Source: Bacteroidota bacterium
GTDB taxonomy: Bacteria; Bacteroidota; Bacteroidia; Palsa-948
Assembly: GCA_023251625.1 (NCBI GenBank)
Contig: JAHEYK010000009.1
Span: forward strand, 1-46,039
Direction of reading: 5' to 3'
DNA: 46,039 nt
The notes beneath the pieces were generated by a model, which saw nothing but the letters and a program-made list of their open reading frames with translations, did no database searches and was not told the DNA's origin. How positions within the stretch are numbered: the stretch's first letter is position 1; each line of letters starts with the position of its first letter. The translations under genes were made by a program, and so were the position numbers. Below, piece by piece: positions 8,137-30,211 of this stretch.

Positions 8137-10116
8137 TCACTTGGCAATGACCTTAAACTCGGTCCTTCGGTTCATCTGGCGGTGTTCATCTGAATCATTG
8201 AGCACAACGGGTTTTGTATCTCCATAGCCTTTGAATGTGAGACGTTCTTTTGCTATTCCATGTGCGGCAAGATATTCAGAAACAGATTTAGCACGATTTT
8301 CGGAAAGCACCTGGTTTGATTTTTTATCCCCAACATTATCTGTATGTCCGCTGAGTTCAATTTTAAGGGATGGGTTTCCGGTTAAAAATTCCACGAGCTT
8401 GTTTAATTCAACTTTTGATTCATCTTTCAGGTCATATTTATTGGTCTCAAAAAAAACATTTTTAAGAATAACTGGAGCGCCTGTTATAGAAATAGGTGAC
8501 AAAGGGATTTCTATGGCAAAAGGTTGATAATCTTTACTTTCATTTAATGCAAAATTTTCTGACTTTGGAAGATATCCTGCTTTGGTGACTTCGAATGCAT
8601 AGTTCCTGTTCACGGGCAGGCATATAAAAAATTCTCCGGTTGTTTTATTCGACACCCATTTTACCATCGAACTTCCTGTTTGGAGGTCCACTACATCTAT
8701 ATCCGATTGAAGGGGTGTTTTTGTATCCGCATCATATACTTTCCCTTTTACATAAATTGTTTTTCCGGGTTGAATGGATTCGTCCAGTTCAAAGGAATAA
8801 ATATCAAGGCCTCCAAATCCTCCAGGACGGTCAGAAGCCATGTAGGCCAGTTTACCGCTTCGCGAAACCAACAAGCTGTTCTCGTCACTGGAAGTATTGA
8901 TCGGGTAACCTAAATTCATAGGTCTACCCCATTGCCCATTTGATTGCCTGCGTGACATAAAAATATCCTGTCCGCCCATACCGGGGTGCCCATTCGATGA
9001 AAAATACAAGGTCTGATTATCCGGATGAATAAATACAGATTCTTCTTCTCTTGGAGTATTGATCACATCGCTCAGTTTTACCGCGGGGCCAAATCTTCCG
9101 TTGCTGCCGATCTCTGACATATATATATCCGGATTGTGTATGGAATGAGAACGTATCTGCCCCCGAATGAAGTACAATGTTTTTCCATCCGAAGAAAAGC
9201 TAGGTTGAGTTTCCCAATTGGAGGAATTTACTCCGGGGCCCGCATTTTGAGGCTTGCTCCATTCATTGCCCTCTTTGACAGAATAAAAAATATCACAGCT
9301 TCCATATCCCTTTCTTCCTAAACCGTAATCATGCCCGTTGGGATCATCAGACATTTCTTCTGAAACCACAAAAAATAAAATATTTCCATCAGCAGAAAGA
9401 GCAGGAGCCCCTTCATTTCGTTCTGTATTTATTTTATTTCCGATGCTGAATGCCGTCCCCCACTTGCCATCTGTTTTGTTACTCACATAAAAATCTTCCT
9501 GCAAGCCATACGGATTCGCTTTGGTTGGAAGATTGCGGGTAAACAAGAACATTTGCTCATCGGCAGTCATGCTCGGGAAATATTCATCGTTCTTGGAATT
9601 CAATCCCGCACCTGCATTCACCGGCTTAAATGGAACCGGATGCTCAAGAGCATTGATCGAAAAATCACAATTGATAAGCCATTGCTGTGCTTCTATATTT
9701 ATTTCCCGGTTCTCTGATGGTTTTCGCAAGAAGCGTTCAAAATTCTGCCTGGCTTCTTTGTAATTGTTAAGTGCTACCAAATATTTTCCAAGGGTGTAAT
9801 AAGCCATAGGAAAAAAATCCGGATTGACAGCAAGTGCTTTCTTGATTTCAGCAACAGCCGTTTCAAACTGCTTCATGTCAGCATAAATATCAGCAAGCAT
9901 CAAATGTGCCTCTATGAACAACTCATCCTTCTCAATCGCCTTCAGTAAAGATTGCTTTGCATTTTCTTCGTTACGGGCATACATGTACTTGATCGCTTCT
10001 TCGTATAATGAGATTGCTTTTTTATTCTTGGTAGTGTATTGTTGCTGCGCATGGCAGATGGCAGATGGCAAAAGGCAGATGGCAGAAACAAAAAATATTT
10101 TTAAAACACTCTTCAT
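8137..10116 (-). CDS. OmpA family protein with TPR, PD40 repeats and carboxypeptidase-regulatory-like domain (PorE-like paralog)
   Basis: TPR repeats (FIEAHLMLADIYADMKQFETAVAEIKKALAVNPDF), PD40 repeats (TLYFSSNGHPGMGGQDIFMSRR), GKVYDADTKTPLQSDIDVVDL CRD, C-terminal OmpA (IELSGHTDNVGDKKSNQVLSENRAKSVSEYL). Confidence 0.88.
   Translation of the reverse strand: MKSVLKIFFVSAICLLPSAICHAQQQYTTKNKKAISLYEEAIKYMYARNEENAKQSLLKAIEKDELFIEAHLMLADIYADMKQFETAVAEIKKALAVNPDFFPMAYYTLGKYLVALNNYKEARQNFERFLRKPSENREINIEAQQWLINCDFSINALEHPVPFKPVNAGAGLNSKNDEYFPSMTADEQMFLFTRNLPTKANPYGLQEDFYVSNKTDGKWGTAFSIGNKINTERNEGAPALSADGNILFFVVSEEMSDDPNGHDYGLGRKGYGSCDIFYSVKEGNEWSKPQNAGPGVNSSNWETQPSFSSDGKTLYFIRGQIRSHSIHNPDIYMSEIGSNGRFGPAVKLSDVINTPREEESVFIHPDNQTLYFSSNGHPGMGGQDIFMSRRQSNGQWGRPMNLGYPINTSSDENSLLVSRSGKLAYMASDRPGGFGGLDIYSFELDESIQPGKTIYVKGKVYDADTKTPLQSDIDVVDLQTGSSMVKWVSNKTTGEFFICLPVNRNYAFEVTKAGYLPKSENFALNESKDYQPFAIEIPLSPISITGAPVILKNVFFETNKYDLKDESKVELNKLVEFLTGNPSLKIELSGHTDNVGDKKSNQVLSENRAKSVSEYLAAHGIAKERLTFKGYGDTKPVVLNDSDEHRQMNRRTEFKVIAK
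10051..10086. repeat. GGCAGAT heptamer-based tandem repeat inside the signal-peptide coding region
   Basis: ATGGCAGATGGCAGATGGCAAAAGGCAGATGGCAGA. Confidence 0.85.
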
Positions 10117-10141
10117 ATAGTCTTATAATCAAGAACCGTTC

Positions 10142-10831
10142 CTAAGGAATTCCGATGTATTTATGCGTTTGTAAAGATATCATCCATTGTGGATGCTGCT
10201 GAACATAATTGATTATCAATGGCATCATTTCATTTCGTTTGCTCCACTCGGGCTGCAAAAAAAGAATGGCTAATGGTTGATGGCTAATGGTTGATGTATT
10301 CTTTCCATTAGACATTAACCCTTTTCCATTAACCATCATCTCCACTTGTTCTTCCGCAAAGCGAAAATCATCTTTATTATGAATGATCACTTTCAGCTCA
10401 TTAGCCTTTGGAAAATTTTCTTTGAGCACAGCCATATTTTTTTTGGGAGAAAGGCAGATCCAGTCCCAGTCACCGGTAATTTTATATGCACCGGAGGTTT
10501 CCAGAAAAGTTTGAATACCTCTTTTCTTAAAGCCTTTGGTGAGGTATGAAAGCTCGCTCATGCAGGGCTCTCCTCCTGTAACAACGACCGCCTTAGCAGG
10601 AAATTTTGAAGCGTTCTCTATAATTATATCCGCTTCGGTAAGAGGATGAATACTTGCGTCCCAGCTCTCTTTTACATCGCACCAGTGGCAGCCCACATCG
10701 CACCCTCCTATGCGTACAAAATAAGCAGCCTTGCCGGTATTAAACCCTTCGCCCTGAATGGTGTAGAATTCTTCCATAAGAGGAAGAAGAGTACCTTTTA
10801 AGATCTCGGGCTTTGTAGCAGCTAATGACAT
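10142..10831 (-). CDS. queE: 7-carboxy-7-deazaguanine synthase QueE (radical SAM)
   Basis: MEEFYTIQGEGFNTGKAAYFVRIGGCDVGCHWCDVKESWD (CX3CX2C), VVTGGEPCM, FLQPEWSKRNEMMPLIINYVQQHPQWMISLQTHKYIGIP. Confidence 0.93.
   Translation of the reverse strand: MSLAATKPEILKGTLLPLMEEFYTIQGEGFNTGKAAYFVRIGGCDVGCHWCDVKESWDASIHPLTEADIIIENASKFPAKAVVVTGGEPCMSELSYLTKGFKKRGIQTFLETSGAYKITGDWDWICLSPKKNMAVLKENFPKANELKVIIHNKDDFRFAEEQVEMMVNGKGLMSNGKNTSTISHQPLAILFLQPEWSKRNEMMPLIINYVQQHPQWMISLQTHKYIGIP
10268..10340. repeat. GGCTAATGGTTGAT tandem x2 with inverted partner words, inside queE
   Basis: Exact 14-mer tandem at 10268-10281/10282-10295, followed by CCATTAGACATTAACCCTTTTCCATTAACCATCATC in opposite orientation. 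Confidence 0.85.
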
Positions 10832-10939
10832 AATATTAGTAAAAATACAGAAATAGTTTGCTTAGCGTAAAATACCCTGTTTAAAGCTGTTCCCGGTGTT
10901 AAACACACAAAATTTATTATTTCGATACCGCCCAACCTT

Positions 10940-10947
10940 TATCTTTG
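10940..10947 (+). promoter_or_regulatory. -7 box TATCTTTG upstream of the choice-of-anchor V protein
   Basis: TATCTTTG match to TAnnTTTG; lies within the longest ORF, supporting the downstream start at 11014. Confidence 0.4.
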
Positions 10948-11013
10948 TTATTCCGTGTAAGTATTGTAGATTGGCCAATAAGAACACAAATAATTCTTAA
11001 TATCTTTATTTTT

Positions 11014-12567
11014 ATGAAAAAAAAATCACTACTTATCATCTCCCTGGCAATCATTATTCTGATCGTTATTCATAATGCGGCTTTTTCCGACAGCAACGGC
11101 ATGAACAGGCATTCAGGCACGCTGGATGAAAATACCTGTTCAGAAGCCGGTTGTCATGGTGCCGGAAATGGGAATGGTAGCACAGGCGGACTCCCCGATA
11201 ACGGAGGGCCCGGATCGATCGCTCTTACTTCTAATATACCCGCCAACATATATACTCCCGGAACTACGTACAGCATGACCATCACATTGACCGAAGCAGG
11301 ATGCCAGCACTTTGGTTTCAGCGGAGTTGCCGTAAACAGTGGAATGTCTAATTCAGGCACCATGACCGCTACAGATGCAGCACATACTCAAGTACAAAAC
11401 TATAGCCGCCTGTATATAACCCACCAGGCTCCGCCACAGGGAGTTTTTTTAACCACAAACCCTGCTGTGATCAATTTTAACTGGAAAGCTCCGACTACCA
11501 ATGAGGGCCCGGTTACATTTTATTATGACGGTATTGCCGCCAACAATAATCAACTGAATGATGCAGGAGATAATGTATACAAAGGCAGCATGACCTTCAA
11601 TCCAAATACGCCTGTATCAGCACCGCTCATTTTATCTTCTATCAGTGCGCAAACATTCAGAGCGACAACAAGCATCCCGTCAGTACCTAAACGTTTTTAT
11701 GTTTCGGGGCAAGCACTTTCTAATAATATTTCCATTTCCATTCCTTCTCCTTATGAACTCTCTTTAAGCCCTACCGGCGGTTTTAGTACGAGTGCGATCA
11801 CCTTGACCCAGGCAAGCGGAAATGTGAACACTACTCCATTCTATGTGCGATACAATGCATCTTTAAGCGGAGCGTCCAACCAAACAGTCACTCTCAGCAG
11901 CAGTGGAGCCACTTCCAAAACTGCGGCATTCACCGGGCAAATTGCAAACCCTGTCATTAACACACCTAACCAGACAACGATAGCACAGTTCTCAACCAGT
12001 GTTGGAACTCCTTCAAGCATTGACAGCTTCACAGTTACTTTTTCAGGTTTGATGGACAGCATCATCTGGACTGCCCCTCCACAATTTCAGATCACTACAA
12101 ATAAAACAAGAGATTGGGACCTGAAACATTACTGGACTCCCTTCAATCCGATCTGGGGGCTGAGTAATTTCAAGATGTATGTTCGCTACAACCCTGCCGT
12201 TGCAGGTCCGCACAGCGGCAATGTTGTGATATCCACTTTAGGAGGAACCTCCCAGAATGTTGCTGTGAGCGGGGTTACCATTGGCACCGGAATAGCAGAA
12301 AATATACTGAATGAAAATTCTGTAAAAGTGTATCCCAACCCATTGAGCGGAAAAGGTTTCATTCAGTTTGACATGGCACAGGCTGGAAATGTTGCTGCGA
12401 TTATTTATGATCTGAACGGAAAAAAGGTGAAAGATATCTCATCTGCTTTATTTAACAAAGGCAATAACTCTATAGCATTTGACGCAGGAGGATTATCCAA
12501 AGGCACTTACATGATCTCATTGGAAACAAAACAAGAAAAAACAGTTAAACAAATTGTGATCGAATAA
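11014..12567 (+). CDS. Choice-of-anchor V / reeler-like domain protein with T9SS type A C-terminal sorting domain
   Basis: MKKKSLLIISLAIIILIVIHNAAFS signal; SGTLDENTCSEAGCHGAG...YTPGTTYSMTITLTEAG; C-terminal VYPNPLSGKGFIQFDM...IIYDLNGKKVKDIS...GLSKGTYMISLETKQEKTVKQIVIE. Confidence 0.85.
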   Translation: MKKKSLLIISLAIIILIVIHNAAFSDSNGMNRHSGTLDENTCSEAGCHGAGNGNGSTGGLPDNGGPGSIALTSNIPANIYTPGTTYSMTITLTEAGCQHFGFSGVAVNSGMSNSGTMTATDAAHTQVQNYSRLYITHQAPPQGVFLTTNPAVINFNWKAPTTNEGPVTFYYDGIAANNNQLNDAGDNVYKGSMTFNPNTPVSAPLILSSISAQTFRATTSIPSVPKRFYVSGQALSNNISISIPSPYELSLSPTGGFSTSAITLTQASGNVNTTPFYVRYNASLSGASNQTVTLSSSGATSKTAAFTGQIANPVINTPNQTTIAQFSTSVGTPSSIDSFTVTFSGLMDSIIWTAPPQFQITTNKTRDWDLKHYWTPFNPIWGLSNFKMYVRYNPAVAGPHSGNVVISTLGGTSQNVAVSGVTIGTGIAENILNENSVKVYPNPLSGKGFIQFDMAQAGNVAAIIYDLNGKKVKDISSALFNKGNNSIAFDAGGLSKGTYMISLETKQEKTVKQIVIE

Positions 12568-12593
12568 AATACCCGGAAACTCTTTGAAGTAAT

Positions 12594-12980
12594 ATGAAAA
12601 AAACAACAAACTGGACAGTTATTTTACTGGCGGTATTTGTGGCGTGCACCAAGGACAAAGGAGAATTAGTTAAACCAAGGCCTTTGGGGCCGGGCTGTGA
12701 TACCAGTATGGTTATTTCTTATGCAACGGACATTGTACCCATTATGAACAACAGCTGTGGAGCCCAGGATAATTCGTGCCACACCTCCGCAACTGCATCC
12801 GGACAGACGATACTTGATATTCAAGTGGGTGTTAATGCTGTTGCAACGAATGGCAAATTGCTTAGCTCCATCACATGGGATGGCAATGCTTCTTTCATGC
12901 CAAAATCAGGAGTTAAACTGCCGGAGTGTGATATCAATAAAATCCGAAAGTGGATCAACGAAGGGGCACCTGATAATTAA
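12594..12980 (+). CDS. Cytochrome c-like lipoprotein (PSCyt1-like small domain with spaced CX6CH)
   Basis: Lipobox [30 protein letters not shown]...[28 protein letters not shown]. Confidence 0.7.
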
Positions 12981-13855
12981 TAGACCTCTTTTTTACTCGC
13001 CTTCAGGGAATTCAGAAGCAGAGATGTGATGGTCATTGGGCCTACCCCACCGGGAACATGGCTGATGAAAGAACATTTGGGAGCCACCTCATCATATTTT
13101 ACATCACCTAATAATTTCCAGCCGGTTTTTGTTTTGTCGGATTTAACGCGTGTGATACCGACATCAATTACCGCTGCACCTTGCTTAACATAATCAGCAG
13201 TGAGAAATTCTGCCTTACCTAAAGCGACAATTAAAATATCAGCACTGAAACAAATTTCTTTCAGATTTTTTGTTTTGCTGTGAGTTAGCGTTACCGTGCA
13301 ATTTCCCGGATACGTATTCCTGGCCATCAAAATGCTCATAGGGGAACCCACAATATGACTTCTGCCGATCACCACGCAGGTTTTTCCTGCTGTTTCAATT
13401 TTATAACGTTCGATCAGCTGCAGAATTCCATAAGGCGTTGCGGGCAAATAGGTTGGAAGGTTAAGCGCCATTCTCCCCACATTGGCCGGATGAAATCCAT
13501 CCACATCTTTTTCAGGGGCGATGGTTTCAATTACTTTCTGTTCGGAAATATGCTTAGGCAAAGGCAGTTGAACAATAAAGCCATCAATATCCTTGTCTTT
13601 ATTTAAGTCGGATATTTTTTTCAGCAGTTCACTTTCAGAAACAGTATCCGGCAATCTTACCAGAGTCGATCTGAATCCTACTCTTTCGCAGGCTTTCACT
13701 TTCCCCCCCACATATGTTTCGCTGGCACCATCATTACCAACAAGTATTGCAGCAAGATGAGGTATTTTCTTTCCCGCAGCTTTCAGCTTTTGCACTTCAG
13801 CAGCTATTTCACCCTGAATCTCTTCCGATACTTTTTTTCCGTCAATGATTGTCAT
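12977..13855 (-). CDS. folD: Bifunctional methylenetetrahydrofolate dehydrogenase/methenyltetrahydrofolate cyclohydrolase
   Basis: [92 protein letters not shown]. Confidence 0.96.
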
Positions 13856-13856
13856 A

Positions 13857-13946
13857 TAGTTACTAATAACGAATAATTACAAATGTTACTAATCAGTGCA
13901 TGCTTATTCGTAATATTCGTTGCCATTAGTTATTGGTATCCTATCG
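13857..13946. repeat. ACTAATAACGAAT/TTACAAAT dispersed palindromic repeat, copy A
   Basis: ACTAATAACGAAT (13862-13874), TTACAAATGTTACTAATCAG (13877-13896), then inverted words TTATTCGTAATATTCGTTGCCATTAGTTATTGGTATCC. Confidence 0.8.
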
Positions 13947-15281
13947 CGGCTTCTGCATGTTCTGCATATTCGACATCATTTTGCGCATCTGATCTTTATT
14001 TCCCATCATGCGCATCATCTTGCGTGTTTCTTCAAATTGCTTGAGCAGTTTATTCACATCCTGTACCTGGCGGCCACTGCCTTTTGCAATACGTTCTCTT
14101 CTGCTACCATTAATGATCTCGGGGTTGCTTCTTTCTTTTGGGGTCATGGATTGAATGATGGCTTCGATATATTTGAACGCATCGTCATTGATATCCACAT
14201 CCTTAATTGCTTTTCCGACTCCAGGAATCATCCCCATCAGGTCTTTCATGTTGCCCATCTTTTTTATCTGCTGTAGCTGGCTTACAAAATCATTGAAATC
14301 AAATTTATTCTGGGATAATTTTTTTTGAAGTTTTTTAGATTCTTCTTCACTAAATTGTTCCTGTGCACGTTCAACGAGCGTAACCACATCGCCCATGCCC
14401 AAGATTCTGTCTGCCATGCGATCCGGGTGAAAGACATCTATCGCATCCATCTTCTCTCCGGTCCCTACGAACTTAATGGGTTTGTTTACCACACTCTTAA
14501 TTGAAAGAGCTGCCCCGCCACGTGTATCGCCATCCAGTTTGGTGAGCACTACTCCACCGAAATCCAGTCGTTCGTTAAAAGTCTTTGCTGTGTTCACAGC
14601 ATCCTGCCCGGTCATGGCATCCACTACAAATAATATTTCATCGGGGGAAACAGCTTTTTTCACCGCAGCGATCTCGTTCATCATTTGCTCATCAACTGCC
14701 AAACGGCCGGCTGTATCGATGATGGCCACTGAGTGATTATTTAATTTAGCAAATTCTATTCCCTTTTTCGCAATGCTTACCGCATCTTTATTCTCACGAT
14801 CAGAAAACACCGCTACACCGATCTGTTGTCCAAGAACATGTAATTGATCAATCGCTGCAGGGCGATATATGTCACAGGCAACAAGCAACGGATTTTTTCC
14901 TTTTTTAGTTTTCAGGTAATTGGCAAGCTTTCCTGAAAAAGTTGTTTTACCGGACCCCTGCAAGCCGCTCATCAGGATGACGGTTGGATTACCGGACATT
15001 TTTAACTCCGCATTCTTCCCTCCCATCAACTCCGCAAGTTCATCGCGTGTGATCTTGGTCATCAGCTGGCCAGGGGAAAGGCTGGTAAGCACGTTCTGCC
15101 CAAGCGCTTTTGCCTTTACGTTATCGGTAAAGGTCTTAGCCACTTTAAAATTCACATCCGCATCCAGTAATGCCTTGCGGATCTCCTTGAGCGTTTCACC
15201 CACATTCACTTCGGTGATCTTGCCCTGCCCTTTCAGAACCTTAAATGCACGGTCTATTTTATCACTTAAATTCTCAAACAT
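13941..15281 (-). CDS. ffh: Signal recognition particle protein Ffh
   Basis: [55 protein letters not shown]-terminal Met-rich M domain. Confidence 0.97.
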
Positions 15282-15315
15282 ATTATTGATTCTAAAGTTG
15301 AAATAAAATGAGAGA

Positions 15316-15323
15316 CAAAGTTA
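15316..15323 (-). promoter_or_regulatory. -7 box TAACTTTG upstream of ffh
   Basis: CAAAGTTA on +. Confidence 0.45.
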
Positions 15324-15464
15324 ATTTTTTTCCCCTTTTAATAAGAGGCGTGAGTAAACAAGACCGGCTCAGCTTTCATATGTGGATAAAATCTTCCTTG
15401 CGTCATCATACGCTTAATAATTATACGTACATTTCATGACAACAAGCATAAAAACACCTATTTT

Positions 15465-16544: not shown

Positions 16545-16620
16545 TTGTTACCCCGGCTCTACCTTGCTGCGCCAAGGCGAGAAGGGTGCAACAATTCCGT
16601 TCGATTAGACTAAAGTTTCA

Positions 16621-16643
16621 AAGTCCCTTTAGGGATTTAGGGG
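16621..16643. repeat. Word repeat AAGTCCCTTTAGGGATTTAGGGG with internal CCCT/AGGG symmetry
   Basis: Direct reading in the gap between desaturase and sigma factor. Confidence 0.5.
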
Positions 16644-16680
16644 AATTCCTTTACAATATCTTTTCCTGCCATTCGTCTTA

Positions 16681-17283: not shown

Positions 17284-17297
17284 TCGCCTCACCCCTG

Positions 17298-17318
17298 CCC
17301 CTCTCCTCAGGAGAGGGG
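17298..17318. repeat. Perfect palindrome CCCCTCTCC-TCA-GGAGAGGGG between sigma factor and small membrane protein
   Basis: 9-bp arms, 3-nt spacer. Confidence 0.8.
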
Positions 17319-17348
17319 TTCTGGAAGAGGCATAAAAACTAAAACAAC

Positions 17349-17720
17349 ATGAGAAATCATTGGATCAAAAGAGGAATAGGGATTGGCATCGCAGCCGTTG
17401 CGGGCGCCTTCCTGCTGGGATATGTGGTCATGCATTTATGGAACTGGCTCATACCGGCAATTTTTACAGGAGCTGCAGTAATTAATTACTGGCAGGCTTT
17501 CGGCATACTGATTCTGTCAAAGATCCTTTTCGGAGGGTTCAGAGGCAGGCATGGATGCGCCTGCCTGCCGGACAGGCATGGATGCGGGCACCGCGGAGGT
17601 CACTGGCGCGGACGCTGGTGGAAAGAAAAATGGGAAGGCATGAGCGAAGAAGAAAAGGAAAAATTCCGCAAGCGCTGCGGAGACTGGTGTGAGCCGGAGG
17701 CGAAGCCAAAAGCGGAATAG
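17349..17720 (+). CDS. Small membrane protein with basic/His/Cys-rich tail, probably co-transcribed with the ECF sigma factor
   Basis: N-terminal TM segments; RGRWWKEKWEGMSEEEKEKFRKRCGDWCEPE tail; 65 bp downstream of the sigma gene on the same strand. Confidence 0.75.
   Translation: MRNHWIKRGIGIGIAAVAGAFLLGYVVMHLWNWLIPAIFTGAAVINYWQAFGILILSKILFGGFRGRHGCACLPDRHGCGHRGGHWRGRWWKEKWEGMSEEEKEKFRKRCGDWCEPEAKPKAE
17544..17586. repeat. In-gene repeat: CAGGCATGGATGCG x2 (27-nt period) around CCTGCCTGCC
   Basis: 14-mer at 17546-17559 and 17573-17586; GGCAGGC/GCCTGCC inverted words. Confidence 0.8.
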
Positions 17721-17732
17721 AAAGCGAAAGTC

Positions 17733-17825
17733 TCAAGTCACAAGCCCCAAGTCCAAAATTCCAAGGATAGTACCTTGGTAGTTTCTTTGGACTTGGGGCT
17801 TGATACTTTGGGCTTGGGACTTTTG
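17733..17825. repeat. Compound palindrome of CAAGTC/CAAGCCCCAAGTCC words
   Basis: CAAGCCCCAAGTCCAAA (17741-17757) is the exact reverse complement of TTTGGACTTGGGGCTTG (17786-17802); inner CCAAGG/CCTTGG; flanking TCAAGTCACAAG and CTTTGGGCTTGGGACTTTTG. Confidence 0.85.
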
Positions 17826-18314: not shown

Positions 18315-18360
18315 TGCTGTCAGGTGTTACCACCACAAGTGTTCGAAAGACCTGACGGCA
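18315..18360. repeat. Palindromic word repeat TGCTGTCAGGTGTT...AAGACCTGACGGCA
   Basis: 14-nt arms, one wobble and one mismatch. Confidence 0.6.
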
Positions 18361-18379
18361 CGATAATATGCACAAAAAA

Positions 18380-18402
18380 AAAGGGGGACCATGTCCCCCT
18401 TT
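18380..18402. terminator. Bidirectional intrinsic terminator between ndk and the ABC transporter
   Basis: AAAGGGGGAC-CAT-GTCCCCCTTT perfect 10-bp stem with A run upstream and T-rich sequence downstream. Confidence 0.85.
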
Positions 18403-21509: not shown

Positions 21510-21550
21510 GAGTTAATTGCGAATTACTGATTAGGACTTACGTATTAAAA

Positions 21551-21961: not shown

Positions 21962-21992
21962 GGCAGTATATATTTTTAATTTTTATATTGTT

Positions 21993-22886
21993 TTATGCAA
22001 TGATCATTCCACGAATGGCAGCGATCTTATCGCCAATAGCCTGTATGTTTTCAGGAGTGATCGTAATTTCAGACTTACTGGTGATGGTTGTGACCTTGCT
22101 AACTTCATCGGTAACAGGACGCTCATATACATATTTGTATACCACCTTGTCATATTCCGACTTAAGATCGTTGAGCTTGGTTAAAAGCTCAGCATATTCT
22201 TCATTGCCTTTAAAAGCAGAGATGAGGAATATAAGATTGGTAAGTGTACTTTTCTGTTCCGCTATTCTGCGTCTTACATCATCGTTGGCTTTGGTCTTCA
22301 TGATATTGATGGCAAACTGAAGCGTTTCGATCCATCCTCCTGCCACAATAAGAGCCGCCTCTTCATTGCGCTGATTGTTTTTCAAAAAGTCGTTGCTTGC
22401 GCGATACGCTGCAGAAACAAGCACAAGGATCGAATCCTTTTTGGAAATATTTTTTTGAAAACGTTCGATCAGGGTCTTATCAAATGCATTGGAAAGCCCT
22501 AGATCGGTAGCCAGTGTGTTGGTAGCCTTAAAATACATCAGAGCATCCTGTTGCTGATCATAAAGAGTGGTGTAACCCAGATCAGCACCGTAAATACCCA
22601 GATTCAGGCATTTCTGAAACTTGGTTGAATAGGAATTTACTTTGCCGGTCTCGTTCAGGATTTTTTTATCATACGGAGCGCCGCTTTTCTGAATGAGCAT
22701 AGCCGTTTGAATAGGAGAAGGAATGATAAACACTTTTCCTTCCACTCCAATGGTCACATTGCTTGAATCAATCATCTTCTCAAGCTTTTTATCAGCTTTA
22801 TCCTGATCACCTCCGCTTCCGCAGGATGCAAGGAAAAAAGATACAGGAACGGATAAGATCAAAAGGTTAAAAAAGTGCTTCTTCAT
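21993..22886 (-). CDS. Hypothetical lipoprotein
   Basis: Lipobox FFLASCGSGGD; single ORF upstream of secreted protein and ABC transporter. Confidence 0.78.
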   Translation of the reverse strand: MKKHFFNLLILSVPVSFFLASCGSGGDQDKADKKLEKMIDSSNVTIGVEGKVFIIPSPIQTAMLIQKSGAPYDKKILNETGKVNSYSTKFQKCLNLGIYGADLGYTTLYDQQQDALMYFKATNTLATDLGLSNAFDKTLIERFQKNISKKDSILVLVSAAYRASNDFLKNNQRNEEAALIVAGGWIETLQFAINIMKTKANDDVRRRIAEQKSTLTNLIFLISAFKGNEEYAELLTKLNDLKSEYDKVVYKYVYERPVTDEVSKVTTITSKSEITITPENIQAIGDKIAAIRGMIIA

Positions 22887-22917
22887 CTGAAGGGATTTTA
22901 ATTGTATTAAAGTGCAC

Positions 22918-22925
22918 CAAAAGTA
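22918..22925 (-). promoter_or_regulatory. -7 box TACTTTTG upstream of the lipoprotein/secreted/ABC operon
   Basis: CAAAAGTA on +. Confidence 0.4.
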
Positions 22926-23010
22926 GTATTTTTTTACAATTTAGGCACTTCACCAAAATAAATAAAGAGTTAACAATTTAGAGGAAGTTTTACCTACAGA
23001 AAAGGCCCTT

Positions 23011-23274
23011 TTACAGCTTGTCGAACCTGCCCTTTTTCTCCACGGCTTCTTTCACTTCCAGGGCTTTGCCACGGTGTTCTTTCCCGTTCATGGCTTCAAT
23101 GGCTTTTAGAGCATCCGCTTTCTTCTCAAATTCGATAAAGCCAAATCCTTTGGACGACCAATCAGCACGGTCGTAAATGATCTTGGCAGAAAGGATCTCT
23201 CCATGCACAGCAAAGATCCCTTCGAGCTCTACTTCGTTCACATCGGGGTGAATGTTCTTGACAAAGAGTTTCAT
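23011..23274 (-). CDS. RRM-domain RNA-binding protein
   Basis: RNP2 KLFVKNI; RNP1 KGFGFIEF; 87 aa single-RRM protein. Confidence 0.93.
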   Translation of the reverse strand: MKLFVKNIHPDVNEVELEGIFAVHGEILSAKIIYDRADWSSKGFGFIEFEKKADALKAIEAMNGKEHRGKALEVKEAVEKKGRFDKL

Positions 23275-23295
23275 CTTCTATTGTTATTTTTTCTG

Positions 23296-23368
23296 GTTAC
23301 AAATATAACGAATCAGACGTTTGGTATTTATTTGTAACATTCGTATCAGATTCGTTATTAGTATCCTA
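23296..23368. repeat. ACTAATAACGAAT/TTACAAAT dispersed palindromic repeat, copy C (inverted)
   Basis: ATTCGTTATTAGT (23350-23362) is the reverse complement of the 13-mer in copies A and B; GTTACAAAT (23296-23304) / ATTTGTAAC (23330-23338) inverted arms. Confidence 0.8.
23300..23307 (-). promoter_or_regulatory. -7 box TATATTTG upstream of the RRM gene, inside repeat copy C
   Basis: CAAATATA on +. Confidence 0.4.
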
Positions 23369-24637
23369 CCATTTTGAAATTTTATATCCTTTGATGCTGT
23401 AAAATAAAATGTACAAGTAGCAGGGGATCATAAGCAGGGCAAATACAATCTGAAAGTTATATTGCTCTTTCATAGCGGCAAAAATTTTAGGAATGATGGC
23501 CCCTCCTGCAATACCCATGATCAGCAAAGCAGAACCTGTTTGGGTAAACCTTCCAAGTCCGCTGATAGCCAACGGAAAAATAGCCGGCCACATCATTGCA
23601 TTTGCCAAACCAAGGGCTGCAACAAAAATAACAGAGGTATATCCGTGCGTGAAAAAAGCTATTACTGTAAAAAGAATTCCCAATATAGCTGATATCCTCA
23701 ATGCTGTTTGCTGGGAAATAACCTTCGGCACGGTGACAAGGCCGAGTACATATCCTACAAACATTGCACCCACTGTAAATGAGGTAAAGTATTTTGCTTC
23801 ATCCGAAGGAATACCAAATCCCTTCCCATAAATGCCGATCGCATCTCCGGCCATCACTTCTACACCCACGTAAACAAAAATGCAAAATGCACCCAGTAAT
23901 AAGTATGGAAATTGAAAAATGCTTGTCCTGCTTTTAGAGAGTTCACCGTCAGCAGGTGATTCATTGACCTCTGAAGCATTGATCTCAGGAAGTGTCGAGC
24001 GCATGATCCAAGCAGCAAGAACAATCAATATACCGGCCATTATCATGTAAGGAAGATATATCTTGGAGGCAAATTCATTGAGTAAAGATTCACGCGTGTT
24101 CTCATCCGCAGCAAGTTTCACACTTTCTTCAAACTTGTCAATGTTTTTGAGTGCAAAGGCGCTCAACACGAAGGGGCTGAGAAACCCTCCTATTTTATTA
24201 CAAATCCCCATGATGCTGATGCGCTGCGCACCGCTTTCGATAGGCCCCAGAATGCTGATGTATGGATTAACAGCCGTTTGCAGCAATGACAATCCCGAAG
24301 CAATGATAAAAAGTCCCATCAGCGATATGGGATAATTTCTTTGAGTAGCGAATGTGCCGAAGAGGAAGGTACCCAATGCCATCACGATGAGCCCGAATGC
24401 CATGCCTCTTTTCATGCCTGTTTTACCTAATATCCACGAAGAAGGAAGTGCCAGAAAAAAATACGCGAGAAAAAAAGCGGTGGTGACAAGAAACGCTTTT
24501 GAATCCGTATCTAGCGAGAATGCCAGCTTCACAAACAGAATCAGCGGGCCGTTAAGCCAGGTGACAAATCCGAAAACAAAAAATAAGATCCCGATGATGA
24601 CCATCGGGGATGTGGTGGATCTTGCCTGTGTTGTCAT
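23366..24637 (-). CDS. Sugar MFS transporter (FucP/GluP-like)
   Basis: 12-TM protein; FFVFGFVTWLNGPLILFVKLAFSLD, VNPYISILGPIESGAQRISIMGICNKIGGFLSP. Confidence 0.88.
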   Translation of the reverse strand: MTTQARSTTSPMVIIGILFFVFGFVTWLNGPLILFVKLAFSLDTDSKAFLVTTAFFLAYFFLALPSSWILGKTGMKRGMAFGLIVMALGTFLFGTFATQRNYPISLMGLFIIASGLSLLQTAVNPYISILGPIESGAQRISIMGICNKIGGFLSPFVLSAFALKNIDKFEESVKLAADENTRESLLNEFASKIYLPYMIMAGILIVLAAWIMRSTLPEINASEVNESPADGELSKSRTSIFQFPYLLLGAFCIFVYVGVEVMAGDAIGIYGKGFGIPSDEAKYFTSFTVGAMFVGYVLGLVTVPKVISQQTALRISAILGILFTVIAFFTHGYTSVIFVAALGLANAMMWPAIFPLAISGLGRFTQTGSALLIMGIAGGAIIPKIFAAMKEQYNFQIVFALLMIPCYLYILFYSIKGYKISKW

Positions 24638-25998
24638 TAAGAATGTTTTTCTATAAATCGGATGCCAAAATTCTCAAGCTCTGCCAAAACAGGATCATAA
24701 ATTTCTTTTACAGTCGGAATATGAACTCCTTTCAAATTTATTTTTCCATTCAGAATCATTTTTGTAGAAATTCCAAGCGGAAGCCCTACTGTTTTTGACA
24801 TCGCAGTATTCACCTGATCATCGCCAATCACCACTAAAGATGAAGTTATCCTTTTGACTTTAGACTTTTGACTTGGGTCTTTGTATTCAAACTCATGCTG
24901 CATAACAACCATATCCTTATCGTGCGGTTTAAGGCTCCATTTCTTCATCAGTAGATCAAGAAGAATTTCGGCAGGAGAAGAATCTTTCAAACCGATCTTC
25001 TGATTTTTCAGAATTCCAACCCAATCCAGTTTTTTCATGACGGGGGAATTTTCTTTCTCATGTAAAAACTTCGCGAGTTTTCTTTTTAAAGAACCCCCTT
25101 TTCCAGGGGAAGAGGGCAGAAAGGATCCGATCAATTCAGAATAGGTTGTATTCTCCGAATCTGAAACCTTGCAATTATCATCCGTTAAGCCCAGCTGAAT
25201 GAATGCATCCCACGCTCTGCAGAAACCCGGCTGTCGCAGCGTTCCGCGCAACATATTTTTCACATCGTGTAAACCATACAGTTCCATATAAGAAAGAGAA
25301 TCACGGTTTGCGTATGCTTCAAATTTTCCCAGCTTGTCAACAGTAATTGTTTCCACGTTGGAGAACAATCTTGTATAAGGAACATATTTTATTTCTCCAT
25401 TCTCTAAATATTGCGCAGTGGCTCCTGCAGAATCACCCGATTGCCCGGCCATAACGACCGCACGCGGGTTCCAGGTGAATTTATATCCCCATGGATTATC
25501 ATTTGATTCAGGAGCTACCAATCCTCCGCAATATGATTTAAATGTGACCATGGTACCACCTTTTGCTTTCACATCATCAATTACTTTCATAGCAGAAAGA
25601 TGGTCAATGCCCGGATCCAGGCCGATCTCATTCAGAAAAATAACACCCGCTTTTTTTGCTTCTGCATCAAGATCTTGCATTTGTTTGGAAACGTAGCTGG
25701 CGGTGACCAGATTTTTCTTTTGTTTCAAACATTCTTTTGCCACCGACAGATGCATAGTAGCAGGAAGCATGGAAATAACCAGATCCACTTTAGCGATCTC
25801 GCTTACTCGTTGTTGTTCACTATTTACATCAAAGGCAATGGCGTGTGCATTTGGGTGATTACCGGTCTTTTGTTTTGCGAGTTCCCGGGAAATATCTCCC
25901 ACAGTAATTTTCCAGTTCTCTTGCTGAGAATTATCCAGCAAATATTTTATAAGCGTAGATGCTGAACGGCCGGCACCTATGAGAAGGATGTTTTTCAT
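24637..25998 (-). CDS. Saccharopine dehydrogenase family protein
   Basis: NILLIGAGRSASTLIKYLLD Rossmann motif; VISMLPATMHLSVAKECLKQKKNLVTASYVS; EIGLDPGIDHLSAMKVID. ATG overlap with the MFS gene. Confidence 0.9.
   Translation of the reverse strand: MKNILLIGAGRSASTLIKYLLDNSQQENWKITVGDISRELAKQKTGNHPNAHAIAFDVNSEQQRVSEIAKVDLVISMLPATMHLSVAKECLKQKKNLVTASYVSKQMQDLDAEAKKAGVIFLNEIGLDPGIDHLSAMKVIDDVKAKGGTMVTFKSYCGGLVAPESNDNPWGYKFTWNPRAVVMAGQSGDSAGATAQYLENGEIKYVPYTRLFSNVETITVDKLGKFEAYANRDSLSYMELYGLHDVKNMLRGTLRQPGFCRAWDAFIQLGLTDDNCKVSDSENTTYSELIGSFLPSSPGKGGSLKRKLAKFLHEKENSPVMKKLDWVGILKNQKIGLKDSSPAEILLDLLMKKWSLKPHDKDMVVMQHEFEYKDPSQKSKVKRITSSLVVIGDDQVNTAMSKTVGLPLGISTKMILNGKINLKGVHIPTVKEIYDPVLAELENFGIRFIEKHS
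24851..24883. repeat. CAAGTC-type word repeat inside the saccharopine dehydrogenase gene
   Basis: CTTTTGACTTTAGACTTTTGACTTGGGTCTTTG; encodes KDPSQKSKVKR. Confidence 0.65.
25094..25116. repeat. CCCCCTTTTCCAGGGGAAGAGGG imperfect palindrome inside the saccharopine dehydrogenase gene
   Basis: GC-rich imperfect symmetry; encodes part of SSPGKGGSLK. Confidence 0.45.
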
Positions 25999-26015
25999 AT
26001 CATTATTTATCGAAG

Positions 26016-26023
26016 CGAAGATA
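26016..26023 (-). promoter_or_regulatory. -7-like box TATCTTCG upstream of saccharopine dehydrogenase
   Basis: CGAAGATA on +. Confidence 0.35.
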
Positions 26024-26032
26024 AAATTTTTA

Positions 26033-27400
26033 TCAGGAGATGTTCATTCTTCTTATTATGTAATTAAATCGCAGGAAAAGAAAAACGGCTGCGGAAGTGA
26101 GTGCGATGGTAAGCCCATACCATACGCCCTGTACACCTAAACCAAAAACAAATGCCAGCACGTAACAGCTCGGGAGCCCTATCAGCCAATAAGAAATGAA
26201 TGTGATCCACGTAGGGATGCTCACGTCTTTTATCCCCCGCAGCACGCCAAGCCCTACCACCTGCACACCATCAGATAATTGAAAGAGAGCAGCGATCAAT
26301 AATAAAGAAGAAACTATCTGCTGTACATCTTTTTCATCATTGAAAATAGCAGGCACTGAAAAACGACAAAGAACAAACATGGCTGCAAAAAGCAATTGCG
26401 CTATGATGACCATTCCAAATGCACTGAGGGCTGCCTTTCGCAGCTCAGGGATATTTTTTGTTCCCAACTGATTACCCACACGCACACTGGCTGCCGCGCT
26501 TATGCCGCTTGCGATCAAATAGGTCATGGCTGCAAGCTGTAATGCGATCTGGTGAGCAGCCTGCTCCCTCTTCCCTATCCAGCCTATCATCACCAGCGCA
26601 CAGGCAAATGCCCCAATCTCAAATACCCATTGAAGGCCGGAGCCAGCACCAATACTGAATATTTTTTTCATGCGTTCAAAAGAAAGTTCTTTGAATAAAA
26701 ATGCCTCGCGGTATTTTAAAAAATGTTTTCCGTAAAAAATGTAAAGGAACATCCCGCCCGCCATCACGAGCCTTGCCCAGAACGTTGCCCAGCAGGCACC
26801 CATCATTCCCATAGGAGAAAAACCGAATTTGCCGTAAATAAGGATGTAATTGAACAACACATTCAGCAAATTTGAACCAATGGTGATGATCATAGCAAAA
26901 CGTGTAAATGATAATCCTTCGGCAAATTGTTTCAGCGAAGCAAATATGGCCAACGGTATCATGCCAAACATCATCACGTTTAAAAAGGGGATGGCGAGTT
27001 TTACCACATCTTCAGATTGATGAATATGCCCCATCAAAGGAGAAATAGAAAAAAGTATCAGGAACAAGACCGAATTCGTCAGCAGGTTTACGATGAGTGC
27101 ATGACTGAGTAATTTTGTATTCTCATTCAAGTTACCGGAACTGTCGGCTTCGGCAGCAAGTGGAGTTACACCATACGAAACGCCCATCCCAAAGACCAGT
27201 ACTAAAAAATAAAATCCATTTGCCAGCGAAACAGCCGCCTGTGCGGTGGTGCCGCTGTAACCCATCATATCTTCTTTAATACCACCTACCATGGCGGTAT
27301 CCACAATACCCACCATCACATGCCCAAGGTTACTGATACATACTGGCCATGCCAGCAGCACGGTCTTCATAAAGTGGTCTTTGAAATTTTGTGTCAGCAT
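26033..27400 (-). CDS. MATE family efflux transporter
   Basis: 12-TM; MVGIVDTAMVGGI, ISAAASVRVGNQLGTKN. Start at 27400 (MLTQNF) preferred over the track start 27424 because a -7-like TATCTTTA lies at 27409-27416. Confidence 0.92.
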   Translation of the reverse strand: MLTQNFKDHFMKTVLLAWPVCISNLGHVMVGIVDTAMVGGIKEDMMGYSGTTAQAAVSLANGFYFLVLVFGMGVSYGVTPLAAEADSSGNLNENTKLLSHALIVNLLTNSVLFLILFSISPLMGHIHQSEDVVKLAIPFLNVMMFGMIPLAIFASLKQFAEGLSFTRFAMIITIGSNLLNVLFNYILIYGKFGFSPMGMMGACWATFWARLVMAGGMFLYIFYGKHFLKYREAFLFKELSFERMKKIFSIGAGSGLQWVFEIGAFACALVMIGWIGKREQAAHQIALQLAAMTYLIASGISAAASVRVGNQLGTKNIPELRKAALSAFGMVIIAQLLFAAMFVLCRFSVPAIFNDEKDVQQIVSSLLLIAALFQLSDGVQVVGLGVLRGIKDVSIPTWITFISYWLIGLPSCYVLAFVFGLGVQGVWYGLTIALTSAAVFLFLRFNYIIRRMNIS

Positions 27401-27426
27401 AAAGGGTGTAAAGATAGTCCGCACTG

Positions 27427-27472
27427 GTTACTAATAACGAATCTGTTACAAATATTACTAATCAGATTGTTA
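27427..27472. repeat. ACTAATAACGAAT/TTACAAAT dispersed repeat, copy B
   Basis: ACTAATAACGAAT (27430-27442) and TTACAAATATTACTAATCAG (27446-27465), 19/20 identical to copy A. Confidence 0.8.
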
Positions 27473-27505
27473 CTCTTGAGAACGCTGTTGCAATGACGAT
27501 TTATT

Positions 27506-27513
27506 TACATTTG
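27506..27513 (+). promoter_or_regulatory. -7 box TACATTTG upstream of the DUF423 gene
   Basis: Exact TAnnTTTG; implies start at 27523. Confidence 0.45.
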
Positions 27514-27522
27514 TTGCACAAA

Positions 27523-27927
27523 ATGAAGCAACGAAACACACTCATCATTGCAGGAATTTCAGGCGCATGTTGCGTTGCGCTAGGAGCCATGGGAGCACAT
27601 GCATTGAAAGAAAGAATTCCACCCGAGAATCTCCAAACATTTGAAACAGCGGTCCGCTACCAATTCTACCACACGATTGCATTAATTCTTGTCTCTATCC
27701 TTGTAGAAAAAATAGAATCCAAATTTTTAAATTACTGCTCTGCTCTGTTTATTGCAGGAATCATCCTTTTTTCTTTTTCACTATATTTCCTGGCGCTTCG
27801 TCCATTGATGGGTATTGGAAATGAAGAAATGCGATGGATCGGGGCAATTACTCCTTTCGGAGGATTGAGCTTTATTTTGGCATGGTTAATGCTTTCTTAT
27901 TCAGTAATCAGATCGACTAAATCATAA
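27523..27927 (+). CDS. DUF423 domain-containing small membrane protein
   Basis: GISGACCVALGAMGAHALKERIPPENLQTFETAVRYQFYHTIAL...TPFGGLSFILAWLML. Confidence 0.9.
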   Translation: MKQRNTLIIAGISGACCVALGAMGAHALKERIPPENLQTFETAVRYQFYHTIALILVSILVEKIESKFLNYCSALFIAGIILFSFSLYFLALRPLMGIGNEEMRWIGAITPFGGLSFILAWLMLSYSVIRSTKS

Positions 27928-27938
27928 AACCTATAATT

Positions 27939-28343
27939 ATGAAAACCATTCTTCGTTTAACAGCATCAGGCATCCTTCTTCTTCTTTTGGGAGCATGTCA
28001 CAGTAAAAAAAATGCTACAGTAGCGGCACCCCCTCCCGCACCGGCAGCCACTCAAACTGCTCCGGATGATTCGTATCGTTTAGTAGTGTCTTTTTACAGC
28101 GAAGGAGCGGGAGTTGACATGAAGGTAAAAGACGAGTTTGAAAAATTTCTCAACAGCAATGCTAAAAAGATCGCTTTTGAACCCACCCGTTGGGGAAGAG
28201 AAGGCGAAACAGATTACTGCTTAAAACTCAGCGAATTATCTGCTTCTGAGCAAGCTGACCTTGTAAAAAGAGCGAAAGAATTGCTCTCTAAAACAAAGCT
28301 GGTACATGTTGATGAAAACGCGAAGTGTGTTCATAAACATTGA
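27939..28343 (+). CDS. Hypothetical lipoprotein
   Basis: Lipobox LLLLGACHSKK, Pro/Ala linker, small C-terminal domain. Confidence 0.75.
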   Translation: MKTILRLTASGILLLLLGACHSKKNATVAAPPPAPAATQTAPDDSYRLVVSFYSEGAGVDMKVKDEFEKFLNSNAKKIAFEPTRWGREGETDYCLKLSELSASEQADLVKRAKELLSKTKLVHVDENAKCVHKH

Positions 28344-28376
28344 AGAATAATTTCTGCATTCTTTCAGCCGTTTTTT

Positions 28377-28384
28377 TAATTTCG
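28377..28384 (+). promoter_or_regulatory. -7-like box TAATTTCG upstream of pckA
   Basis: TAnnTTCG variant 54 bp before the start codon. Confidence 0.3.
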
Positions 28385-28437
28385 CGAACCTAATAACAGA
28401 TTAATATCTGTTAAGAAGGTAATCTAACTATTAAATT

Positions 28438-30051
28438 ATGAGTGAACCAACAGATAAGGGCAAACAATGGCTCAAATCAATCGGAATAAACAACTCAAAC
28501 TCTCTCTGGAACCTTTCTGCCTCTGAACTTACTGCCGAAACCCTGCGTCTGAAACAGGGTGTACTTAACGATACCGGGGCCCTTGCTGTCGATACCGGGG
28601 AATTCACCGGACGCTCTCCCAAAGACAAATTTATCGTGCTGGATGACAAAACAAAAGATGTGATCTGGTGGGGCGATGTGAACTTCAAATTTGATTCTGC
28701 TAAGTTCGATGCACTCTATAACAAAATGGTGAATTACCTTTCCGGAAAACAGATCTATGTACGTGATTCTTTTGCCTGCGCTGACAAAAAATTTCGCTTG
28801 TCCATTCGTGTGGTGACAGAATTTCCCTGGTCGAATCTTTTCGCAAACAATCTTTTTATCCGTCCAACGAAAGAGGAAACTTCTTCTTTTAACCCAGAAT
28901 GGACCATCCTCAATGCCCCCGGCTTTCATGCGGTGGCTGCTGATGATGGAACAAGGCAACACAACTTTACCATTCTTGATCTCACAAAAAAAGTGGTTCT
29001 CATCGGAGGAAGCGGCTACACAGGCGAGATCAAGAAAAGTATTTTCACATTACTGAATTATATTCTACCCCACGAAAAAGGAGTTCTCTCTATGCACTGT
29101 TCGACAAATGTGGGCAAGAAAGGCGATACAGCTATTTTTTTTGGCCTCAGCGGAACAGGAAAAACAACCCTCTCTGCGGATCCTAACCGTGGATTGATAG
29201 GTGATGATGAACATGGCTGGGCAGAAAAAACGATCTTCAATTTTGAAGGGGGCTGTTATGCAAAATGCGTGAACCTCAGTGCTGAAAAAGAACCGGAGAT
29301 CTATGGAGCGATCAAAGAAGGAGCCCTTCTGGAAAATGTCCGCTTCTTACCCGGAACAAAAAAAGTGAACTTCGATGATATATCTGTAACAGAAAATACA
29401 CGCGTTGCTTATCCGATAAACTTCATCAACAATGCGGTTGAACCATCCGTAGGCGGAATTCCAAAAAATATTTTTTTCCTCACCTGCGATGCTTTTGGAG
29501 TGCTTCCCCCTATTTCAAAACTCACCGCAGGACAAACCATGTACCATTTTATTTCCGGATACACGGCTAAAGTGGCGGGCACCGAAATGGGGATCACAGA
29601 ACCTACCCTTACATTTTCTGCTTGTTTCGGAAAAGCTTTTTTGCCGCTTCACCCTACAAAGTATGCGGAGCTGATGGGCAAAAAACTGAAAGAGGATAAA
29701 GGTGTGAACGTTTGGCTTGTTAACACCGGCTGGACAGGCGGATCTTATGGGGTTGGAAACAGAATGAAGCTTTCGCACACCCGAGCGCTCATCACAGCAG
29801 CGTTAAACGGAGAACTTGAAAAAGTAAAATTTGAAACACTTCCTGTATTCAATCTTGCATTTCCCACTTCATGCAGCGGTGGGGTTCCTTCTGAGATCCT
29901 GAACCCACGCAATACATGGAAGAACCAAGATGCATATGATGCAAAGGCGAACGAACTGGCAAAAGCGTTTGTAAAAAACTTTCAGCAGTATGCAAGCGCA
30001 GCCAATGAAGAGATCATGGCTGCCGCGCCAAAGGTGACGGTTAGCGCCTAA
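28438..30051 (+). CDS. pckA: Phosphoenolpyruvate carboxykinase (ATP)
   Basis: FTGRSPKDKFIV, GLSGTGKTTLSADPNRGLIGDDEHGW, TGWTGGSYGVGNRMKLSHTRA. Confidence 0.97.
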   Translation: MSEPTDKGKQWLKSIGINNSNSLWNLSASELTAETLRLKQGVLNDTGALAVDTGEFTGRSPKDKFIVLDDKTKDVIWWGDVNFKFDSAKFDALYNKMVNYLSGKQIYVRDSFACADKKFRLSIRVVTEFPWSNLFANNLFIRPTKEETSSFNPEWTILNAPGFHAVAADDGTRQHNFTILDLTKKVVLIGGSGYTGEIKKSIFTLLNYILPHEKGVLSMHCSTNVGKKGDTAIFFGLSGTGKTTLSADPNRGLIGDDEHGWAEKTIFNFEGGCYAKCVNLSAEKEPEIYGAIKEGALLENVRFLPGTKKVNFDDISVTENTRVAYPINFINNAVEPSVGGIPKNIFFLTCDAFGVLPPISKLTAGQTMYHFISGYTAKVAGTEMGITEPTLTFSACFGKAFLPLHPTKYAELMGKKLKEDKGVNVWLVNTGWTGGSYGVGNRMKLSHTRALITAALNGELEKVKFETLPVFNLAFPTSCSGGVPSEILNPRNTWKNQDAYDAKANELAKAFVKNFQQYASAANEEIMAAAPKVTVSA

Positions 30052-30077
30052 TATTGTTTTTGGGAAAAAGAATATTA
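30049..30077 (+). terminator. A/T-rich hairpin containing the pckA stop codon
   Basis: TAATATT-g-TTTTT-GGG-AAAAA-g-AATATTA: 12 of 13 positions paired. Confidence 0.45.
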
Positions 30078-30169
30078 AGTTTGGGAGTGAAGCTCCACCA
30101 CCAAATAGCGAGGTCCTTCAGTCGCCATTCATCCATCCGCTTATGCCCAGACGGGTACTTCTGGTGTTA

Positions 30170-30211
30170 TTATGTGCCCGGAATCCCGCTTGAAGCGGGA
30201 CATGCCGTAAG
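30170..30211 (-). pseudogene. Degenerate partial copy of the tRNA-Leu 3' half and 3' flank
   Basis: TTATGTGCCCGGAA (30170-30183) equals 30267-30280; CATGCCGTAAG (30201-30211) equals 30296-30306, same order and near-identical spacing. Confidence 0.5.
30184..30200. repeat. Perfect palindrome TCCCGCTT-G-AAGCGGGA in the tRNA-like remnant
   Basis: 8-bp arms around a single G. Confidence 0.8.

Follow-up and report, generated by a model that had tools for sequence, protein, structure and literature searches.

Heptanucleotide arrays and short palindromes are dispersed through the genome of a Bacteroidota bacterium and share sites within genes

Introduction

A contig of 46,039 nucleotides from a Bacteroidota bacterium of the Palsa-948 lineage (GCA_023251625.1, JAHEYK010000009.1; hereafter "the window") contains many short repeated words and palindromes that are unrelated in sequence. 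A sequence-only reading of this DNA placed about ten families of them in one stretch between 10 and 30 kb, and suggested one generating process for them. This raises the question of whether such words form a local island, and whether one process can account for all of them. Here, we report that the words are real and are spread across the whole genome rather than this stretch. They fall into two kinds, which are (A) tandem arrays of a 7-nt unit (heptad arrays), and (B) palindromes resembling repetitive extragenic palindromes (REPs), together with one imperfect palindrome of approximately 84 bp.

Materials and Methods

The source genome (G000; 2.73 Mb, 79% complete, 178 contigs) includes the window as contig C168. 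The window and 60 further stretches of the same genome made up a sample of 762 kb (28% of the genome), to which the word and array counts for G000 refer. The comparison sets were six genomes of the same genus (G001–G006) and loci from other phyla; the latter (n = 80) were fetched through one heptad match and are thus preselected for heptads. Expected word counts were obtained from three order-3 Markov simulations, and both strands were counted, so that a perfect palindrome scores twice. Heptad arrays were detected using Tandem Repeats Finder (TRF) and a mechanical lag scan. The open reading frame (ORF) 10142–10831(−) was named queE from its sequence alone, without a family search.

Results

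Genome-Wide Occurrence of the Words

All of the strings listed in the sequence-only reading were located in the window by direct checking, and most of the families were more common than expected by chance. The observed and simulated counts were 15 versus 0 for two tandem GGYTRAT units, 7 versus 0 for ACTAATAACGAAT, 12 versus 0–1 for CCCTTTAGGG[AG], 41 versus 2–4 for CCCCTCTCC, 10 versus 0 for the inverted pair GTCAGGT...ACCTGAC, 36 versus 4–8 for TCCCG..CGGGA, and 9 versus 0–3 for GGACTTGGG. The excess was weaker for CCTGCCTGCC (13 versus 3–7). Three further strings were also weak: ACCTGAC alone showed no enrichment (52 versus 46–55) and was in excess only as the inverted pair, CAGGCATGGATGCG was confined to the window within the sample, and CCCTTTTCCAGGGG occurred once. 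An unsupervised ranking of 10-mers was topped by several of the same families, including that of CCCTAAAGGG and that of CCCCTCTCCC (22 versus 0.77 expected).

The concentration in one 20-kb stretch did not hold. Positions 10051–30200 contain 16 elements, whereas 10.6 ± 4.9 were counted per 20 kb elsewhere (range 1.0–20.5), and the island hypothesis was ruled out because 16 lies within this spread. The flanks, in which no such words had been noticed, contain 5 matches in the left 10 kb, mostly single 10-mers, and 2 in the right 16 kb, which is indeed poor. Two adverse outcomes had been named beforehand, namely counts at the level of composition and the same sequence conserved in orthologues, and neither was found.

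Heptad Arrays

Class A consists of tandem repeats of a 7-nt unit, imperfect and in many cases accompanied by an inverted partner, such as GGCAGAT, GGCTAAT/GGTTGAT, CAAGTCC, and CTTTTGA. TRF detected 50 period-7 and 38 period-14 arrays, versus at most 13 for any other period. The lag scan gave 30 loci at lag 7 against 0–4 at lags other than its multiples, while simulated sequence gave none at lag 7. The same pattern was observed in the genus (34 period-7 arrays in 518 kb); the wider class contained fewer (5 in 343 kb), and the 80 loci from many phyla, selected by a heptad match, yielded 115 further arrays. An inverted partner was located within 150 nt for 21%, 18%, and 25% of arrays, compared with 1–5% in the null, and the window holds two heptad hairpins with inverted arms (10264–10345 and 17728–17823). 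Differences between adjacent units were mainly transitions (transition/transversion ratio 1.54, versus 0.39 for other periods), as expected of true copies that have decayed.

No single word was dominant, as about 35 distinct heptad words were present in the G000 sample and 132 in the pooled sets. Words were shared by 34 pairs of unlinked intergenic arrays in G000 (null mean 5.6, maximum 14), a few of these pairs being the two arms of one hairpin, and 15 of 48 words were common to the genus and G000 (2.4 expected). The overlap across phyla was not significant (8 versus 4.7), and no stop-codon bias was found in the choice of heptad word. Among 395 Bacteroidota genomes, GGACTTN was present in 4 and two permuted words in 13 and 3; reversed control words also matched in other genomes of this set, often many times per genome. 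With permuted words as frequent as real ones, each lineage can thus amplify words of any sequence. The period of the heptads is constant and the word is arbitrary between lineages, which upholds for this class the earlier claim of a process not tied to one sequence. A universal lexicon was considered for the GGACTTN heptads found in at least 118 stretches across phyla, yet permuted words were as common, so that this candidate was rejected as ascertainment. Carriage by phages was also rejected, as viral contigs gave 40 stretches for the real word versus 60 and at least 120 for permuted ones, with no sign of carriage.

Long tandem arrays of a 21-nt unit (3 × 7), reaching about 230 nt, were observed in genomes of the same genus and not in the window (L088:3355–3535, L088:8462–8837, L092:799–937, L149:1421–1639, L152:17070–17208, and L154:11954–12122). 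One such array directly follows a nucleoside diphosphate kinase gene.

Heptads in Signal Peptides

Among 57 arrays, 27 were intergenic (a compartment making up 15% of the DNA), 17 were located in the first 100 nt of ORFs, and 13 were deeper in genes; the first 90 nt of ORFs account for about 7% of the DNA. Most of the N-terminal arrays encode segments resembling signal peptides, for example FCLLPSAFC and VYCLLFIVYCLLSSC. In the window, the GGCAGAT array at 10051 encodes the hydrophobic core of MKSVLKIFFVSAICLLPSAICHAQ, the signal peptide of ORF 8137–10116(−), which the sequence-only reading had missed. Orthologues of this ORF carry other signal sequences, and G005 keeps CATCTGCCATCTGCC-like units. 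As 7 is not divisible by 3, selection on amino acids cannot generate this DNA period and can act only to retain arrays already in place. Signal peptides made of 7-nt repeats (FCLLPSA, VYCLLFI, GFWLLAS) were also seen in many unrelated genes of G000, including those at L050:6514, L025:3134, L066:8234, L061:11154, and L054:13273.

Different Inserts at One Gene Site

The words of the window occur both between genes and in frame within genes, as had been claimed. Comparison with orthologues identified them as insertions, in-frame cases included, and unrelated words were found at the same site in different species. In queE, the site is a loop before LFLQPEW, where G000 carries a GGCTAAT heptad hairpin composed of an ATGGCTA/ATGGTTG arm (10265–10296) and an inverted arm (10305–10339). 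The same loop contains CCAACAT heptads in G001, AACCATC-type heptads in G002, CCAAACT heptads in G006, the CCCCTCTCC palindrome in G005, and another insert in G003, while G004 has no insert. ORF 24637–25998 presents a similar picture at two loops. The first holds AAAGTCA/AAAGTCT heptads in G000, four CAAGTCT units in G004, CAAGTCC/CAAGTTC in G006, and a CCCCTC-type palindrome in G003. The second holds the CCCCCTTTTCC hairpin in G000 and a longer CCCTCACCCC insert (CCCTCACCCCATCCCTCACCCCGAGGGAGAGGG) in G004, and is short in the others. A third insert lies elsewhere in the gene in G006. All inserts in these two genes keep the reading frame. Alignment of intergenic DNA with the relatives gave synteny too poor for use.

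Palindromes and Nested Insertion

Class B comprises palindromes of about 16–40 nt and the one of ~84 nt, all of which are amplified in G000 (Table 1). The ~84-nt element (TTACTAATAACGAAT...ATTCGTTATTAGTAA) is present in several complete copies in the sample and in essentially none in the other genomes of the genus. This element, also called the ACTAATAACGAAT element, was compared with miniature inverted-repeat transposable elements; inverted ends are present, and a target duplication was not evident by eye. In one of its copies, about 5 nt appear to be replaced by TCCCGATAGCTATCGGGA. Some palindrome copies start with CGTC. In the GATTGCTTCG...CTCGCAATG elements, the inner sequence differs in nearly every copy and is often itself palindromic.

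A palindrome of 19–21 nt, CCTGCCTG(N)CCGGCAGGCAGG, was found nested inside other words. Its hosts among the heptads are ACTTTGAA^CTTTGAAC, filled by 21 nt, and ACTTGGGA^CTTGAAG (a caret marks the junction), and the heptad register of the former is restored once the 21-nt palindrome is removed. The CACCCTGAGCYTGTCGAAGG element serves as a host in both arms. One arm (CCCTGAG^CYTGTCGAAGG) was empty in nine copies and filled by the 19-nt palindrome in one, and the other was empty in six and filled in one, the latter also lacking one base. Further copies reside within GTCAGGT and CCCCTC palindromes. Removal of this palindrome gives back the host word, target-site duplication is absent from the comparisons of empty and filled sites, and the target GAG^CTTG was observed twice. 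An automated search for inserts within heptads returned mostly low-quality matches, and no relevant publication emerged from a literature search on the CCTGCCTGCCGG palindrome and the peptide PAGQAG that it encodes.

Two further hairpins of the window were observed. A partial duplicate of tRNA-Leu(CAG) has its T-arm GAGGACTTGAACCTC swapped for the palindrome TCCCGCTTGAAGCGGGA, with flanks that are otherwise identical. At 18374–18402, an GGGGGACCATGTCCCCC hairpin flanked by an A-run and a T-run lies between convergent genes and is likely an ordinary two-way terminator.

Table 1. Heptad arrays and palindromic elements located in the window.
Feature	Position	Strand	Evidence
Heptad array ATGGCAG (TCTGCCATC... 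on the − strand)	10051–10086	−	TRF period 7, translation, position
Heptad hairpin in frame in queE-like ORF 10142–10831(−)	10264–10345	−	Fold −26.0 kcal/mol, orthologue comparison
~84-bp imperfect palindromic element (TTACTAATAACGAAT...ATTAGTTATTGGTA), intergenic	13857–13941		Complete copies elsewhere, fold −19.2, species-restricted
CCCTTTAGGGATTTAGGGG, member of the CCCTAAAGGG palindrome family	16624–16643		Top 10-mer of family, 26 versus 0.53 expected
CCTCACCCC + CCCCTCTCCTCAGGAGAGGGG palindrome, intergenic	17286–17319		Recurrent CCTCACCCC tail in family; 9-bp stem, −17.4 kcal/mol
CCTGCCTGCCGGACAGG palindrome in ORF 17349–17720	17544–17587	+	Residues absent from orthologues
Heptad hairpin CAAGTCC/GGACTTG, intergenic	17728–17823		Inverted repeat, TRF period 7/14, fold −53.6 kcal/mol
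GTCAGGT...ACCTGAC palindrome, intergenic	18319–18356		Inverted pair enriched; one copy beside Y1 transposase L005
Second, diverged copy of ACTAATAACGAAT element, reverse orientation	23293–23366		Sequence comparison
Heptad array CTTTTGA/CTTTAGA in frame in ORF 24637–25998(−)	24851–24880	−	TRF; missed in the sequence-only reading
CCCCCTTTTCCAGGGG hairpin in frame in ORF 24637–25998	25092–25116	−	Orthologue comparison
Third copy of ACTAATAACGAAT element, truncated to one arm	27426–27475	+	Sequence comparison
tRNA-Leu 3′ part, partial duplicate with palindrome TCCCGCTTGAAGCGGGA (30184–30200)	30174–30211	−	Comparison with tRNA-Leu 30271–30353(−)

Candidate Enzymes

The absence of a mobilising gene, asserted earlier, is correct for the window and not for the genome, in which a profile search gave six PF01797 (Y1_Tnp) matches, that is, Y1/REP-type transposase genes. 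Such genes are present in six of the seven genomes (G000 and five of the six relatives); G001 gave no Y1_Tnp match, though it carries heptads and inserts. The Y1 genes usually sit between hairpins of their own, and GTCAGGT...ACCTGAC was found near those on L005 and L006. No enrichment near Y1 genes was detected for CCCCTCTCC, CCTGCCTGCC, or ACTAATAACGAA. A search for reverse transcriptases gave no RVT_1 match in the 79%-complete genome. At L003:900–1400, several tandem units of ~60 bp, each with an CCCGTAGGGAC hairpin, adjoin a Y1 transposase gene.

Discussion

Comparison with Known Systems

According to PMC4679880 and PMC4692102, a 2007 study described an over-representation of heptanucleotide repeats in bacteria and proposed slippage as their origin. 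The documented words include TAACTGA in Beggiatoaceae (PMC4679880), GGGAATC in Xanthomonas, and GGGGA(C/T)T in Nostoc (PMC4692102). The present arrays resemble these simple sequence repeats in the 7-nt unit, the mostly intergenic location, and the lineage-specific word, and an inverted pair was noted in Xanthomonas as well. However, the TAACTGA and GGGAATC cases involve one dominant word, whereas dozens of words coexist here in one genome. The arrays here are also imperfect, many form hairpins, many encode signal peptides, and one site in a gene can hold unrelated words in different species. As for the palindromes, Y1 subclasses with REPs are known in Bacteroidetes, and in-frame REP insertions have been reported within tnpA-REP genes (PMC6006769). 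Like the systems of REPs and REP-associated tyrosine transposases (RAYTs), the genome studied here has short hairpins at scattered loci, Y1 genes between hairpins of their own, and insertion of the CCTGCCTG palindrome without target-site duplication. In contrast to such systems, most palindromes recognised in the window are not tied to a Y1 gene, and heptads form tandem arrays rather than REPs. CGTC-tagged palindromic repeats and Rickettsia palindromic elements are small palindromes apparently without a dedicated transposase, some of them within ORFs, and some REPs have been reported inside other palindromes (PMC3733652); here, by comparison, several families and heptads share sites, and empty and filled host words coexist in one genome. 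The mitochondrial mobile hairpins, namely GC clusters (PMC4478555), Allomyces double-hairpin elements (cited in PMC7218506), and the repetitive hairpin elements of sponges (PMC2800124), are likewise tiny hairpins of compact genomes without a known transposase, though they are organellar and lack a heptad vocabulary. The open-licence papers that were searched contained no account of imperfect hairpins made of heptads in several words, of signal peptides built from heptads, or of a gene site at which unrelated words alternate.

Proposed Origin of the Words

The explanation that we favour, with about even confidence, is that heptads grow by a slippage-type process and palindromes insert as single strands, both being filtered by tolerance. 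Two genome-wide populations of short inserts without a transposase of their own would then occupy the same tolerant places. Heptads would arise and grow through copying errors with a preferred 7-nt step, and occasional strand switching during slippage may produce the inverted arm. Existing words could then be re-copied to new loci, which would give each lineage its own vocabulary. The palindromes, both those of about 16–40 nt and the ~84-nt one, may move as single-stranded hairpins and insert without target duplication, as expected of Y1/HUH (REP-type) transposition or of hairpin-templated insertion. Inserts would survive selection only between genes, in signal peptides, in protein loops that tolerate them, and within older repeats.

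Several observations weigh against this explanation. Words shared by unlinked loci are not expected from purely local slippage. No enzyme that disperses heptads was identified, and the surroundings of Y1 genes showed no enrichment in heptads (4 period-7 arrays in 91 kb, compared with 50 in 762 kb), nor are most of the palindromes first noticed in the window associated with such genes. The window's copy of CCTGCCTGCC (CCTGCC) at 17544 is flanked by a 14-nt direct repeat, CAGGCATGGATGCG, unlike the clean cases of insertion. Nesting of CCTGCC copies amounted to 4 of 11 by strict automatic scoring and to 8 by eye, against 9.8% of random intergenic positions (binomial p of about 0.02 for 4 of 11). 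The aligned DNA of the relatives is only 70–82% identical, so that recent events are missed.

The earlier proposal of one generating process for all words is supported as to the arbitrary words of the heptads. It gains no such support as to a single process, since the two classes are built differently and no excess of heptads was found around Y1 genes. A single sequence-independent process, such as hairpin-templated or strand-switch synthesis or short single-strand insertion, would suit the arbitrary heptad words, their hairpins, the ever-changing interior of the GATTGCTTCG...CTCGCAATG elements, and the queE loop, at which both classes occur in the same codon-level site (heptads in four species, a palindrome in G005). 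However, protein tolerance also accounts for shared sites, and the resolved palindromes enter as units of 16–21 nt, in contrast to heptads, which differ in copy number and have no common ends or loops; we consider this process unlikely. That every word is a REP-type element moved by Y1 (RAYT) transposases appears rather improbable. The six Y1_Tnp genes of G000 and those of the genus, most of which adjoin palindromes of their own, together with the GTCAGGT...ACCTGAC copies near two of them, speak for it. Yet G001 has heptads and inserts despite giving no Y1_Tnp match, a GT[AG]G foot was not evident by eye on the nested 19–21-nt CCTGCCTG-type palindrome, and a Y1 transposase as the mobiliser of heptads was rejected for lack of an association.

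Ordinary conserved or functional sequence, such as terminators, low-complexity linkers, and codon bias of signal peptides, is a very improbable source. Some hairpins could terminate transcription, like that at 18374–18402, and signal peptides are hydrophobic and repetitive by nature. Nevertheless, the 7-nt period runs through all three frames and hence does not derive from amino-acid selection, the inserts are missing or different in orthologues, and the counts exceed composition. The period and the orthologue comparisons refute this source as a general account.

Conclusions

No cause has been demonstrated for the excess of 7-nt repeats in bacteria, although this excess has been documented since 2007. 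The genus examined here offers a handle on it, as the same gene sites carry different words in different species, and empty sites and nested inserts mark exact boundaries. A broader proposition, which we regard as distinctly unlikely, is that a sequence-independent process in many bacterial phyla both writes and re-copies 7-nt words of arbitrary sequence and short hairpins into permissive sites, and so gives rise again and again to new signal peptides and protein loops. The findings also suggest that recently inserted repeats often supply the material of signal peptides and protein loops, a point relevant to protein evolution and to the annotation of metagenome-assembled genomes.

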